A stretch of DNA of 64,000 nt from an uncultured Eubacteriales bacterium. GTDB lineage: Bacteria; Bacillota; Clostridia; TANB77; UBA1234. Below the pieces are notes generated by a model. The model saw nothing but the letters and a program-made list of their open reading frames with translations. It made no database searches and was not told where the DNA came from. The DNA lies in assembly GCA_949283575.1 (NCBI GenBank), contig CASDSU010000028.1, positions 1 to 64,000 on the forward strand, written 5' to 3'. The position numbers and the translations under genes were made by a program. Of the stretch, positions 5,427 to 58,872 are shown one piece after another (within the stretch, counting starts at the first letter, position 1; every line of letters begins with the position of its first letter).

Positions 5427-5501
5427 TAAATTTCATCCTTTCAAAACAGTATAAAACTACTATTCTTATACGTGTACTTTAATTTTACACTATCTTATGC
5501 A

Positions 5502-5605
5502 GTAAGTTTAATAATTCTTTTTTGTCGCCGAGTTCTCATTTTCATTGCACGATGTTTGCAATGAAAGTGAGTTGTCTGAGGCTAAAAAAGAATTATTGAA
5601 CTTAC
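5502..5605. repeat. Composite hairpin repeat, copy A (between infB and rbfA)
   Basis: About 104 bp. Outer arms of 22 bp (5502-5523 with 5584-5605) are complementary except one position. The inner stem joins CTCATTTTCATTGCA with TGCAATGAAAGTGAG. The flanking GTCGCCGAG and TCTGAGGC are shared with copies B and D, but the outer-arm sequence is different from theirs. In the transcript it would fold into one long two-part hairpin in the rbfA leader. Confidence 0.85.
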
Positions 5606-5635
5606 ATATATTATTATTTAAGTATGGTATAGATT

Positions 5636-23794: not shown

Positions 23795-25768
23795 TTATTC
23801 ACTTATTTTCAATATTTCATCCTTTAGCAACGTAGCAATTTCATAGACCCTAACTAACGTTAACTCCTCTTTTCCAACAGGCATTACTAAGTTAATATAT
23901 TCTTCTATTTCACCTTTTATTTCGTCATCTGTTATGTTATACGTTGTTATATCTGCCATTATTTCTCTTGCCCTATTTGGCGTTATTGGCTCTTCACTTG
24001 CATCAAGCAGATTTATATGCTCTGTTTTCCAGTATTCTTCAGGTATAAAACTTCTCTTCAAATATGTTTCTAAAAATACAATAAACTCTCTTTCAGACAT
24101 TTTTTCTTCTGGATTGAAAGTATTACTATAACCCAAACTCAATATACCTTTTTCGCACATTTCAATTATAAAGTCATAATATCTTCCATCTACTTCAACA
24201 ACTGGCTTAGATTCTTTGCTTAAATACATTCCTTGCAAATTCATTCTTTTTTGCACATCTTTTATAGTAGAAAGGTCTTTCAAAATTTCTTGAAAATCCA
24301 TATTTTTTTCGTTTGAAAGTGCAGCCATTATTCCAGCAGCTTCTCCAAGAGTCATACCCGTAGGAATTACCCTTGCAGATCCTGCAGCAATTGAAGTATA
24401 TGAACCTGATCGACCTATTGTAAGAAGATTTGTAAATCCTTTTGGAATTATTGTTCCCATAGGAATCGAATACTGTATTGGAGCACCAATTATATATCCA
24501 TAATCATAAATACTTGTTGTTTGAACATCGATTGGATAACATGCATGTCCTATAGTATTTGTAAATGTTGTTGACTCTAATATATCTTTTACAGTCAATC
24601 TATATTCTCCAATTATATGCCTTGTTTCTCTAACGTAAAGTTCTGGAGCTACTCCAACTAATTTTGATTTTTCAAAACCTGGAACATTGTCTTTCAAAAA
24701 TTCTGCAACATATTTGGCTTCCTTTACACATTTATCATATGCTCTCTCTTTTGCATCCTCATCAAGCATATTTGCATTTATTATTTGAAGAGAATTTATA
24801 AGAACACTTCCATCGTTTTGTCTTCCAATGTTTAAAGCTTTTAATCTCATGTTAGTTTGCTTTGGAACATAAGTCTCTGTAATATTTCCAAATGCCCAAA
24901 TACTATCATCAGAATAGCCTGTATTTGGTCTAGCTTCTACTCTAATTGTCTCACATGCTTTATCCCAGTCTACGTTATCCATATGTATAACTAAAGTAGC
25001 TGACATTATTCTGTTTTTTTCATTTACATCTTCCCAGCCAACAACATATTCAGCACCCGCAGCAACAGTTATATCAGCATCCTGAGTACAATCAATGTAT
25101 GTATTCGCAACATATTTTTCACCATCAATAATTGCATACTCAATTTCAGTTCCTGTTGATCCAACAGTATATTCTTCAACTTCATACATTACGGTAATCT
25201 TTTCTTCTTCATTAAGCATTTCCTCAAAAGCTTCTTTTGCAAGCTCTACGTCAAAAGATTCATTATTGCCAATCTTTTCATAAAATTCTTCAAAAATTCC
25301 TTTACTTAAAAGCTCACCATACACATTTTGATTCATATCAATTGTATTAAGCATTGCATACGTCATAAGCCCTCCAGGGCCATCTCTTTTTTCAACTAAT
25401 AACACATCTAAATTATTTCTAGCTGCCGAAATTGCTGTAACAATACCTTCTGGCTCTGCGCCAAAAACTATTACATCATATTCAGCTTTCACTGGCATTT
25501 CAACTTCTTCTGGAACTTTTGTAACCTCTTCCTTTTCTATAACTGATGGAGCAATCTCCCCACTATTAACGAATTCCGCATCACCCGAAATCGTATCCTC
25601 TCCCAAAGTTTCACTATTTTCAGAATTTATAACATCATCCGAATTATTTATTGGTAGATTATTTTCAAAACCACTCTTACCCTTAATCAAAAAATATAAA
25701 TTACCTGCTAAAAGTACAATTATCGCAACCATCAAACATATAATCAGTTTTTGACTCTTCATATCCAC
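23795..25768 (-). CDS. Membrane-anchored FAD-dependent oxidoreductase with SLH-like C-terminus
   Basis: The 657 residues have one N-terminal membrane segment (about 6-29), an acidic/Ser linker, and then an FAD_oxidored-type domain. YDVIVFGAEPEGIVTAISAA is the dinucleotide-binding GxGxxG-like loop, with VEKRDGPGG after it. YIDCTQDADITVAAGAEY and TNLLTIGRSGSYTS match the family core. Residues about 545-610 resemble an S-layer-homology repeat (YDFIIEMCEKGILSLGYS, then FNPEEKMSEREFI). It is probably exported or surface-attached. Substrate is unknown. The NTG start (25768) lies within the row of hydrophobic-anchor genes typical of this genome. Confidence 0.8.
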   Translation of the reverse strand: MDMKSQKLIICLMVAIIVLLAGNLYFLIKGKSGFENNLPINNSDDVINSENSETLGEDTISGDAEFVNSGEIAPSVIEKEEVTKVPEEVEMPVKAEYDVIVFGAEPEGIVTAISAARNNLDVLLVEKRDGPGGLMTYAMLNTIDMNQNVYGELLSKGIFEEFYEKIGNNESFDVELAKEAFEEMLNEEEKITVMYEVEEYTVGSTGTEIEYAIIDGEKYVANTYIDCTQDADITVAAGAEYVVGWEDVNEKNRIMSATLVIHMDNVDWDKACETIRVEARPNTGYSDDSIWAFGNITETYVPKQTNMRLKALNIGRQNDGSVLINSLQIINANMLDEDAKERAYDKCVKEAKYVAEFLKDNVPGFEKSKLVGVAPELYVRETRHIIGEYRLTVKDILESTTFTNTIGHACYPIDVQTTSIYDYGYIIGAPIQYSIPMGTIIPKGFTNLLTIGRSGSYTSIAAGSARVIPTGMTLGEAAGIMAALSNEKNMDFQEILKDLSTIKDVQKRMNLQGMYLSKESKPVVEVDGRYYDFIIEMCEKGILSLGYSNTFNPEEKMSEREFIVFLETYLKRSFIPEEYWKTEHINLLDASEEPITPNRAREIMADITTYNITDDEIKGEIEEYINLVMPVGKEELTLVRVYEIATLLKDEILKISE

Positions 25769-25854
25769 ATATATCCTCTCTATAATATTTTTTGTTCCAT
25801 AATTATAGTATCACACATAAGACAATTTGAAAACTAGAGACAGAACGTTTTTAG

Positions 25855-26045
25855 AAATTGAGACGGTTCCTTTTTCAAAAAACGCAAAGTATTTTAGACA
25901 ACGAAAAAAGTATTGTTTTTGTCGCCGAGTTCTCACTTTCATTGCATCATGTTTGCAATGAACAATGAGTTATCTGAGGCTTAAAAACAATACTTTTTTT
26001 CGTTGTCAATTTTTAAATTTTGAAAAAGGAACCGTCTCAATTTCC
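25855..26045. repeat. Nested palindrome: composite hairpin copy B inside REP arms
   Basis: Outer REP arms (about 25855-25880 and 26019-26045, GAGACGGTTCC and GGAACCGTCTC) enclose copy B of the composite hairpin at 25898-26008. The copy has AAAAAAGTATTG/CAATACTTTTTT-type arms and the conserved core with GTCGCCGAG, CATTGCA/TGCAATG and ATCTGAGGC. The whole gap between the divergently placed clpC 3' end and the FAD gene 5' side is this structure. No gene lies in it. Confidence 0.9.
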
Positions 26046-26049
26046 AATT

Positions 26050-28476
26050 TTATTTTACTTTCACACTGACTTTTTCATCCACAAAATCTATCACCACATT
26101 GTTTCCATTTTGAACTTTTCCATCCAAAATTTCTTCTGCTAATGTGTCTTCGATTAGTGATTGTATCGCTCTTCTAAGCGGTCTTGCACCATATGCTGGA
26201 TCAAATCCTTTTTTAGCAATGTGTTTTTTCATTGCATCTGTAACTTCAATAGTAATGTTTCTTTCAGCTAGTCTTCCTGTAGAATTTCTTATCATTATCT
26301 CTACAATTTTCTCTATTTCCATTTCATCCAAAGGCTTGAATACTATTAATTCATCAATCCTATTTAAAAATTCAGGTCTGAATGCTTTTTTCAATTCTGA
26401 CATTACATCATTTTTTATTTGCTCATAATTTTTTTCTTTATTTTCCGCATTATTAAAACCTATTGTTTTTTGCTCTGTAATGTTTCTTGCTCCTACATTT
26501 GACGTCATAATTATAACTGTATTTTTAAAATCAACAAGTCTTCCTTGAGAATCAGTTAATCGTCCGTCTTCCAAGATTTGAAGTAATATATTGAATACAT
26601 CTGGATGCGCTTTTTCAATTTCATCAAATAAAATTACTGCATAAGGTTTTCTTCTAACTTTCTCCGTTAATTGACCACCCTCTTCATAGCCAACATATCC
26701 AGGAGGTGAACCTATAAGCTTTGCAACTGTGTGCTTTTCCATATATTCAGACATATCAATTCTTATCATTGAATTTTCGTCACCAAATAAACATTCTGCA
26801 AGAGCTTTACAAGTTTCAGTTTTACCAACACCTGTTGGCCCAAGAAAAATAAATGAACCAATCGGTCTCTTTGGATCTTTTAGACCAACTCTTCCTCTTC
26901 TTACAGCCTTACTAACTGCAGTGATTGCAACCTCTTGACCAATTACTCTTTTATGAAGTTCTTCCTCTAGATTCTTAAGTTTTGCGGTTTCAGCTTCAGT
27001 AAGCTTATTTACCGGGATATTGGTCCATTTTGAAATTACTTCTGCAATTTCGTTTTCAGTAACATTTGTAGTTGCAATTTGATTTTTCTGTGTCCACTCT
27101 AATTTTACTTTTTCTAATTTTTCTTTCTCTTTTTGTTCCTTATCTCTAAGTTTTGCAGCTTTTTCAAAATTTTGAGTGTTTATTGCATCCTCTTTTTCTT
27201 TTACAATTTCAGCAATTTTTTCTTCAATTTTCTTAACTTCTTTTGGAGCAGTAAGAGATTGCAATTTCACTCTTGATGCAGCTTCATCCATCAAATCGAT
27301 TGCCTTATCTGGCAAATATCTATCATTAACATATCTTGAAGATAACTCAACCGCAGCTTTTATAGCATCATCCGTTATTTTCACTTTATGGTGCGCTTCG
27401 TATTTATCCCTTATTCCAGCCAAAATTTGAATTGCCTCTTCTGTAGTTGGTTCTCCAACTAATACTGGTTGAAATCTTCTTTCCAAAGCCGCATCCTTCT
27501 CAATGTATTTTCTATACTCATTTAAAGTTGTTGCACCAATCACCTGAATCTCAGCTCTTGCAAGTAAAGGCTTTAAAATATTAGCAGCATCAATTGCCCC
27601 TTCTGCAGCACCAGCACCAACAATCGTATGAATTTCATCAATAAATAAAACTACATTGCCAGCTTTTTTTATTTCTTGAAGGCACTTCTTTAGTCGTTCT
27701 TCAAAGTCTCCTCTATACTTTGCGCCAGCCACAATTGAAGAAATATCTAACGTTACTACTCTTTTATTTTTCAAATTTTCAGGAACTTCTCCAGCAACAA
27801 CTTTTTCAGCAAGTCCTTCTACCACAGCTGTTTTACCAACACCAGGTTCACCAATCAAACAAGGATTATTCTTTGTTCTTCTACTCAAAATTTGAATAAT
27901 TCTATCAATTTCTTCTTCTCTTCCAATTATCGGATCAAGTTTTCCCTCACTTGCTTCAAAAGTCAAATCTTTTCCAAATTGATTTAATGTTGGAGTTTGA
28001 TTATTAGGATTCTTCTTGTGAGTTATTGTATTACCACTCTTTTCGTCTGTTAGCATTTTTATTAAAGTCGAAAATAGTTTTTGAATATCAACACCAAGTT
28101 CTGCAATAATTCTAGAAGCTACGCTATCCCCTTCTTTTAAAATTCCAAGAAGTAAATGTTCTGTACCAATAAAATTATTATTAAGTCTTTTAGCTTCGAT
28201 AAAACTCGTTTCAAAAACCCTTTTCGTCCTTGGCGTAAATCCATCAGGCGGAATACTTAAAGGCTCATCTCTACCAATCAACTCTTCTATCAACTCTTCT
28301 ATTTTTTCTTCAGTTACATTTTGCTCTTCAAGAACTTTATACGCAAGTCCAGTTCCTTCTCTTACAAGACCACAAAGCAGATGCTCAGTCCCTACATAAT
28401 TGTGACCAAACTCGCCTGCAACCTCCTGCGCCAGCGCAATCGCTCTCTCAGCTCTATTCGTAAACTTATAAACCAT
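26050..28476 (-). CDS. clpC: ATP-dependent Clp protease ATPase subunit ClpC
   Basis: HSP100 unfoldase that feeds substrates, including arginine-phosphorylated proteins, to ClpP. The 808 residues show two Clp_N repeats (about 1-140) and D1 with Walker [14 protein letters not shown] near 211 and Walker B LFIDEIH. A UVR segment lies near 425-455 and D2 has [14 protein letters not shown] near 545. A C-terminal D2-small domain ends the protein. The UVR/M domain marks ClpC rather than ClpB or ClpA. Start ATG 28476 follows AAAGGAGG. It is the last gene of the CtsR operon. Confidence 0.97.
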
Positions 28477-33506: not shown

Positions 33507-33529
33507 AATCTTTTAGATAATGAAAATTA

Positions 33530-33585
33530 GCAACCAAAAAAGTATTGTTTTTAAGTCTCAGACAATACTTTTTTGTTGTTTTAAT
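33530..33585. repeat. Composite hairpin repeat, copy C (inner stem deleted)
   Basis: Arms AAAAAAGTATTG and CAATACTTTTTT match copies B and D, but only TTTTTAAGTCTCAGA remains between them. The short form is a plausible terminator for the cysteine-rich gene. A REP half-site (AGAAACGTCCCATTC) follows at about 33604. Confidence 0.8.
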
Positions 33586-33656
33586 TAGTTTATATCTTTA
33601 AGAAAGAAACGTCCCATTCTTCAAAAATTTTATTTTCTCTTTTTCTTCAAATTTTC

Positions 33657-41572: not shown

Positions 41573-41775
41573 TACTAAAAATTTGGAAATTTGGATGTTT
41601 CCTTTTTCCAAGTTTAACTAAGAGACAACAAAAAAGTATTGTTTTTAAGCCTCAAACAACTCATTATTCATCGCAAACACAATGCAATGAAAATGAGAAC
41701 TCGGCAACAAAAAACAATACTTTTTTCTTGTATTAAATATTTTACTTTTTGGAAAAAGGAACCGTCCCGTTTATC
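41573..41775. repeat. Composite hairpin copy D flanked by REP-like arms
   Basis: Copy D occupies 41624-41731 and lies in the opposite orientation to A and B: AAGCCTCAAACAAC, then CTCATTATTCATCGCA and TGCAATGAAAATGAG, then AACTCGGCAAC. Arms of the AAAAAAGTATTG/CAATACTTTTTT type bound it. A degenerate arm at about 41583-41612 and GGAACCGTCCCG at 41757-41769 enclose it. It fills the gap between the DUF1385 gene and the Fe-alcohol dehydrogenase gene. Confidence 0.85.
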
Positions 41776-50244: not shown

Positions 50245-50254
50245 AAATTTAGAA

Positions 50255-50296
50255 ATCGGGACGGTTCCTTTTTCAAAAAAGAACCGTCCCAATTTC
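50255..50296. repeat. REP-like palindrome (best-preserved copy)
   Basis: AATCGGGACGGTTC and GAACCGTCCCAATT form an inverted repeat around a T-run/A-run centre. It separates the convergent 49837 gene and the phosphoesterase gene and could act as a bidirectional terminator. Confidence 0.85.
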
Positions 50297-50806
50297 CAAA
50301 CTTTTTACAACTTTTCCATCCAAAGTTTTTAAGTATATTTTTTCCTCATCAATCAACACATAACATCTTAAATCTGTCCCTCTTGGTCTACTTACAGAAC
50401 CAGGATTTGCAAATATTCTTTTATTTATCACTTGAAGAATTGGAACATGAGTATGTCCTTGAATAAAAATATCTCCACAATTTTCAGGTATATTATACAT
50501 ACTATAATAATGCCCATGAGTAACCGTAACAAACTTTCCATTAACATACAAATTATCTAGACTATAAATCTCAAACTCTAATAATTCTTCAAATCTTCTT
50601 GTATCACAATTTCCACGTATAACATCAACTTTCTGCTTCATGCTATTTAAAATTTCTGCAATCTCTTCATCACAATTCTTACTATAATCAGAAGACGTAT
50701 CACCTAGCAAAACAAGTCTATCCGCGTTTTCATTTTAAAAGATTTTAACAATCTCTTTAAATCTTTCGACATCTCCATGAATGTCAGAAACAAAAATATA
50801 TTTCAT
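50273..50806 (-). pseudogene. YfcE/MJ0936-type metallophosphoesterase with in-frame stop codon
   Basis: ATG 50806 reads KYIFVSDIHGDVERFKEIV, the metal-binding DIHGD start of small calcineurin-like phosphoesterases. A TAA at 50737-50735 (codon 24) interrupts the frame, which continues unbroken as RLVLLGDTSSDY, IRGNCDTRR, VTHGHYYSM and IFIQGHTHVP, the remaining metal ligands, to 50273. Restart at ATG-like codons downstream would lose the first metal ligand. The last nine residues (SLEIGTVLF) are encoded by the REP palindrome. It overlaps the corA region by position, following it closely. Confidence 0.8.
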
Positions 50807-58785: not shown

Positions 58786-58795
58786 AATATTTTTG

Positions 58796-58872
58796 TAATT
58801 GGGACGGTTCCTTTTTGGAGTCGTCCCAATTTCGAAAAAAAAAATGGACAAGAGAAACGTCCCCTTGTCCCG
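58796..58872. repeat. Two REP-like palindromes in tandem
   Basis: AATTGGGACGGTTCC with GTCGTCCCAATT, then GGACAAGAGAAACGTCCCC with TTGTCCC, fill the gap between the convergent symporter and phosphoribosyltransferase genes. Confidence 0.75.

Follow-up and report, generated by a model that had tools for sequence, protein, structure and literature searches.

A nested palindrome dispersed behind genes in a gut Clostridia bacterium: a probable REPIN-like mobile hairpin with a structure-conserved core

A long palindrome at about 25850-26047 of the window (the whole stretch of 64,000 nucleotides analysed here) raises the question of what kind of element it represents and by which route its relatives came to be distributed. 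An earlier note on this DNA had suggested either a small element that targets hairpin or terminator loops, or a structured RNA family carried with REPs. In the current work the locus was compared with the window's own genome (G000, 1.80 Mb), a sister species (G005), a more distant congener (G002) and further relatives, all of these genomes being draft assemblies.

The element is a layered palindrome of ~190 nt, in which REP arms enclose spacers, the spacers enclose AT-rich middle arms, and these in turn enclose a core hairpin. The outer arms correspond to a repeat named REP1 (GGAAATTGGGACGGTTCCTTTTTCC). Its left copy (AGAAATTGAGACGGTTCCTTTTTCAAAA; 25850-25880, + strand), representing the same repeat that flanks a Y1 transposase gene in G005, is across 30 nt (25851-25880) 97% complementary to the right arm, an inverted REP1 (TTTTGAAAAAGGAACCGTCTCAATTTCCAA; 26018-26047, - strand) that is also identified by repeat counts. 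Next to the left arm lies the left spacer (consensus aAAnTAnAAACTATTTAAnA; 25881-25895, +), which is homologous among REP1-ended copies in end-to-end alignments, followed by the left middle arm (AGACAACGAAAAAAGTATTGTTTTT; 25896-25920, +). The latter pairs with the right middle arm (AAAAACAATACTTTTTTTCGTTGTC; 25983-26007, +), with compensatory changes in other copies, and the right spacer (26008-26017, +) was delimited by alignments. The core itself consists of the 5' side of the conserved internal loops (GTCGCCGAGTT; 25921-25931, +), the GAGTT of which is retained in five G002 copies with differing stems, an inner hairpin (CTCACTTTCATTGCA-TCATGTT-TGCAATGAACAATGAG; 25932-25969, +) indicated by folding and covariation, and the 3' side of the loops (TTATCTGAGGCT, family form TTGTYTGAGGCT; 25970-25981, +). 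The canonical order is REP1 (GGAAATTGGGACGGTTCCTTTTTCC), left spacer, AAAAAAGTATTGTTTTTT, GTCGCCGAGTT, inner stem-loop, TTGTYTGAGGCT, AAAAACAATACTTTTTT, right spacer and inverted REP1, with a middle-arm pairing that extends outward by bases differing per copy (CAAC/GTTG, AACC/GGTT, GCAAT/ATTGC). All three layers of the nested palindrome that the earlier note had described for the 25898 copy are present; it had also placed the core rightly, although the whole element is longer than this core.

Within the core, the helices covary, while the GAGTT/TGTYTGA internal loop and the C-G pair that closes it are invariant. Thirteen of 25 pairs were found to be changed on both sides, with 96% of cells paired, a value as high being reached in 0 of 500 shuffles, which overstate independence because the sequences are related. 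When only the core helices of the five G002 copies and six others are considered, 98% are paired, with 15 double-changed cells versus 3.2 in shuffles; the arms thus carry the compensatory changes on which the earlier proposal depended. In the G002 copies both the inner and the outer stems are rewritten, the middle pair of a 3-bp GC helix is flipped in two of them, and GAGTT, TGTYTGA and the C-G closing pair are unchanged. With a tandem G-A beside the C-G pair, the loop might also be read as a kink-turn. The core in G002 sits in unrelated arms without REP1, a second REP type (REP2-type, AGGGACAGCCCTTTTT) supplies the outer arms of three further copies (L018, L019, L061), and in L019 and the copy at 5519 the middle arms are of other sequence, yet still complementary. 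It is conceivable, if doubtful, that the core is an unnamed, shape-defined mobile module, i.e. a double internal-loop hairpin (C-GAGTT / TGTYTGA-G) with free helices, which either moves by itself or is passed between REP families. Other such cores occur in G001 (CCGRAGG/TTGAGGA loop) and G005 (L248), and species of the genus may therefore possess several structure-defined palindromes that can replace one another and are read by one single-stranded DNA (ssDNA) enzyme. The G005 example (L248; G005:C28:4250-4780), a palindrome about 360 nt long, ends in REP1 and encloses a structured core of its own (GGCGTTAAGA / TTAGCCGAAAGCC). In G001, other long nested palindromes (L420:1500-1589, L421, L422) have their own conserved internal loop (CCGRAGGCGTGCTRTTGCACGTTGAGGA) and helices that differ yet remain complementary, one of them occupying the same intergenic gap as the window copy at 5519.

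The four copies listed in the earlier note (5502-5605, 25898-26008, 41624-41731 and the deleted 33530-33585) were all recovered at those positions. The first, spanning 5457-5626 (+) with its palindrome at about 5502-5605, is a core copy without REP arms, and it possesses middle arms of its own (GTAAGTTTAATAATTC/GAATTATTGAACTTAC) that are complementary, so that such arms also occur beyond the two copies for which they had been described. The segment at 33523-33616 (-) is a core-deleted derivative (AAAAAAGTATTGTTTTTAAGTCTCAGACAATACTTTTTT), a very similar deletion being present in a second copy (C28:163099). The copy at 41585-41770 (-) is full and in reverse orientation; of the REP outer arms attributed to it the right one is intact, whereas the left one is degenerate (GGATGTTTCC). 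Sequences matching GGAACCGTC with at most one mismatch number 15 in the window versus 2.0 expected (100 shuffles, maximum 7). Between two genes the window also contains a bare, short-looped REP1 hairpin (50248-50301), and elsewhere a REP1 half followed by a palindrome (GGACAAGAGAAACGTCCCCTTGTCC) belonging to another REP type (58791-58868).

Beyond the window, the covariance model search that the earlier note had proposed for the genome and its relatives retrieved 20 full cores in G000, 14 in G005 and five, with different stems, in G002, and the element is consequently far from restricted to the copies originally listed. Two of the 14 G005 cores (C43, C48) are identical in core and near flanks and perhaps represent an assembly duplicate. 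The model found no core in three other congeners and seven other family members, and no further real core was obtained among 385 genomes of the order searched with model R1; three extra weak R1 matches in these genomes correspond to other hairpins. Among 44 stretches from a pattern scan of genome contigs, those outside G005 and G002 contigs read as chance matches, mostly GC-rich, and a scan of viral contigs with three patterns gave no match convincingly retaining both helices. In the gut Clostridia bacterium G000 the element has reached about 20 sites immediately downstream of genes.

With regard to genomic context, the 37 distinct copies occupy 17 convergent, 18 co-directional, one divergent and one undetermined gap, while the window gaps of at least 30 nt, according to a crude gene call, comprise 22 co-directional, 11 divergent and eight convergent ones. 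Among these 37 copies the intergenic-only placement and the use of both orientations hold as first described. Typically, about 70 nt separate the core from the gene end, which places the outer arm close to the stop codon. This position some 70 nt behind stop codons, with 17 of 37 gaps convergent and a single divergent one, together with the A-tract/T-tract arms, is what would be expected if the hairpin were kept as a structured RNA or bidirectional terminator, i.e. a 3' UTR terminator or transcript stabiliser for which the REPs are bystanders; G005 indeed has terminator hairpins at the site of L017 and, beside a REP, at the 41624 site. We nevertheless regard such a function as improbable: both orientations are in use, the orthologous genes at 5519 manage without the element in G005, G003 and G004, and a simple terminator scan of 25700-26200 returned nothing. 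Moreover, core mispairs amount to eight G·U versus 14 A·C, and strand-specific RNA selection is not supported because G·U is not in excess, which leaves the suggestion of a strand-specific structured RNA family without its expected signature. In Rfam, no family reached the cut-off (gathering score and E-value), the sub-threshold matches being mostly of miRNA type and from long hairpins, in keeping with the earlier statement that no named family has this layout. A constant target-site duplication of the MITE style was not seen, the only candidate being a 5-bp GTATA at 5519, with none in the other site alignments, and literature searches for GGGACGGTTC or nested palindromes in Clostridia returned nothing relevant by title.

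How the layers came together can be approached by comparing copies from end to end. A search of the whole of G000 with the 191-nt query produced about a dozen other near-full-length matches of 82-90% identity, plus partial ones. Since REP-ended copies align over their full length, spacers included, the composite seems to be propagated as a whole. An alternative is insertion of the core into the loops of REP or terminator hairpins already present, which would generate the concentric layers. This accords with the presence of the core in REP1 arms, REP2-type arms (AGGGACAGCCCTTTTT: L018, L019, L061) and the unrelated G002 arms, with the REP1 hairpins that stand bare at some of the orthologous sites in G005, and with the existence of other concentric REP nests; yet the spacer outside the core is common to REP1-ended copies, pointing to descent from one composite, and several G005 absences retain REP1 or spacer remnants, as after deletion. 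Loop insertion is unlikely to account for the element, and it is not supported as the main spreading route because REP-ended copies share non-REP spacers and align end to end. The first proposal of the earlier note is consequently supported as regards a small mobile, REP-associated element and not as regards loop insertion as its principal route, although loop targeting may explain how the core was first captured and how other concentric nests arose.

If the composite moves as one unit, its REP1 ends are of particular relevance. REP1 (15-mer, at most two mismatches) occurs 57 times in G000 and 110 times in G005, with 0-3 occurrences in other congeners, and is therefore abundant solely in the two genomes that have REP1-ended cores. 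One Y1_Tnp gene was found in each of them. The G005 gene, encoding a Y1/HuH RAYT-like transposase, has REP1 on both sides in inverted arrangement, and its product matches PF01797 (E=7.8e-16) and REP_Tyr_transpos NF047646 (72.5 bits, versus a curated cut-off of 80). Both Y1 proteins, which share 46% identity over 170 aa, are nearest to this REP-associated tyrosine transposase model, slightly below its cut-off. The G000 gene is bounded on both sides by a different repeat (AGACTTGGGGACGTCC..AAGTCT), as several Y1 genes of relatives are likewise bounded by repeats other than REP1, and the REP1 copies of G000 may thus be orphaned. A RAYT-type transposase with matching repeats, as envisaged by the earlier note, hence exists in the sister species, while the only Y1 gene found in G000 has other flanks. 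In the G005 locus (L152:1441-2316), the C-terminus of the transposase frame (...WKKEPSQIPKWKKEPSQFPK...), i.e. its last codons, is encoded by two REP1 copies, ahead of which there is a weak, below cut-off helix-turn-helix match (PF01381).

What lies between inverted REP1 copies varies in G005 and G000: there may be no content, leaving a bare hairpin, or else short palindromic spacers, other REPs or a different structured core. The core described here is thus one among several contents that a REP1-ended unit can have. At L240, L247 and L252 of G005, other GGGAC-type REP palindromes lie exactly concentric within REP1 pairs. The reverse view, in which a second HuH-type or other candidate transposase acts on the core, which moves on its own, its association with REP1 being one of hitch-hiking, draws on the REP-less gain at 5519 (absent in G005, G003 and G004), the REP-less copies dispersed in G002, and the conserved internal loop with free helices, which is what a structure-reading ssDNA enzyme needs. 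We consider it rather unlikely, as no gene with core copies on either side turned up, including near the Y1 genes, and the congener Y1 genes are bounded by other repeats.

The turnover of copies can be followed as presence or absence between the sister species G000 and G005, which align collinearly, with about 90% identity, across much of the first 30 kb of the window. Only three of the 20 full copies of G000 (L012, L015, L019) are common to the same G005 site, the other 17 not being at the orthologous site. Even shared copies vary: the core of L015 has the opposite orientation in its counterpart (L228; G005:C29:27440-28180) with an identical truncated right flank, and L019 has different outer arms in each species. 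L026, internally deleted in G000, is intact in G005. The REP-less 5519 copy looks like a gain of the G000 lineage because G005, G003 and G004 have a short gap there, and the 41624 copy is absent from its orthologous site, where G005 has a terminator hairpin beside a REP. Elsewhere G005 carries a bare REP1 hairpin at the 25898 and L005 sites and remnants of one at L004; L006 and L013 correspond to half a REP1 with a different palindrome behind it, L011, L014 and L018 to a different palindrome, and L017 to an ordinary terminator hairpin. The bare REP hairpins, seen at 25898 and at two or three further sites, are compatible either with centre deletion in G005 or with core insertion in G000, of which deletion is favoured because of the spacer remnants at L006 and the existence of core-deleted derivatives; some G005 absences can accordingly be deletions rather than G000 insertions. 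Judged from the site comparisons, copy gain and copy loss both appear to occur, single sites being not always polarisable.

Among known systems, REPINs, defined as inverted REP doublets with a spacer forming a hairpin in which compensatory changes are common (Bertels and Rainey 2011, PMC3116915), offer a close parallel: two inverted REPs around a spacer, a single long hairpin, compensatory changes, extragenic location, a non-autonomous nature and, in G005 of the same clade, a matching RAYT-like gene. In contrast to these, REP1 (GGAAATTGGGACGGTTCCTTTTTCC) is without the GTAG/GTGG head that is the hallmark of classical RAYT-REPs, and the interior is long, with a conserved structured core that also occurs without REP1; the REPINs of SBW25, by contrast, have REPs that are better conserved than their spacer (PMC3116915). 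TIRYT/TIRtron systems, as far as described in the available part of Di Nocera et al. 2013 (PMC3733652), similarly combine a Y1/HuH gene (here in G005, not G000) with long inverted non-GTAG repeats dispersed as dimers or clusters. Some TIRs carry, according to the same part, a GGGGWSAS motif resembling the GGGGAC motif found here, to which REP1 (TTGGGACGG) is a partial match only; by eye, GGGGACAA near L159 fits 7/8 and GGGGACGT near L153 6/8, REP1 fitting less well. That part of the account describes no structured, exchangeable core for TIR dimers. BIMEs share the alternating inverted REPs, inter-REP modules and position downstream of genes, but are mosaics of short linker motifs rather than concentric layers with a covarying core (PMC2817692).

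From the anatomy, the copy numbers, the presence and absence between species, the matching REPs at the G005 Y1 gene and the covariation, as observed above, the element is probably a mobile hairpin resembling REPINs and BIMEs, non-autonomous and spread by a Y1 (HuH) transposase, in whose interior a core conserved in structure has been captured. We infer transposition by an enzyme of the G005 type, its ssDNA route and the role of the core. The unit would be bounded by the two inverted REP1 copies, which a Y1 (HuH) transposase of the RAYT/TIRYT type would recognise in their folded, single-stranded form, and the whole REP1-spacer-core-spacer-REP1 unit would be copied or moved to just downstream of genes, with divergent (promoter) positions avoided. 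The core would be an older palindromic module under selection that fixes the shape of the internal loop and leaves the helices free in sequence, presumably captured inside REP1 ends in the G000/G005 ancestor and then spread along with them; its role would most likely be that of a folded single DNA strand recognised by a protein. Long palindromes may later be lost through centre deletion, other palindromes replacing them. The copies without REP1 (5519; G002) require another explanation of spread. We regard the element as a new REPIN-like form with an unnamed structured core.

The copies represent a REPIN-like population in uncultured Clostridia whose ends are of a non-GTAG type, whose interiors can be exchanged and which turns over fast between sister species; the cited REPIN/RAYT papers deal mainly with proteobacteria. 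The core, in which five plus seven loop bases are fixed while both adjoining helices are rewritten, constitutes a natural covariation experiment on the features by which a hairpin is recognised.
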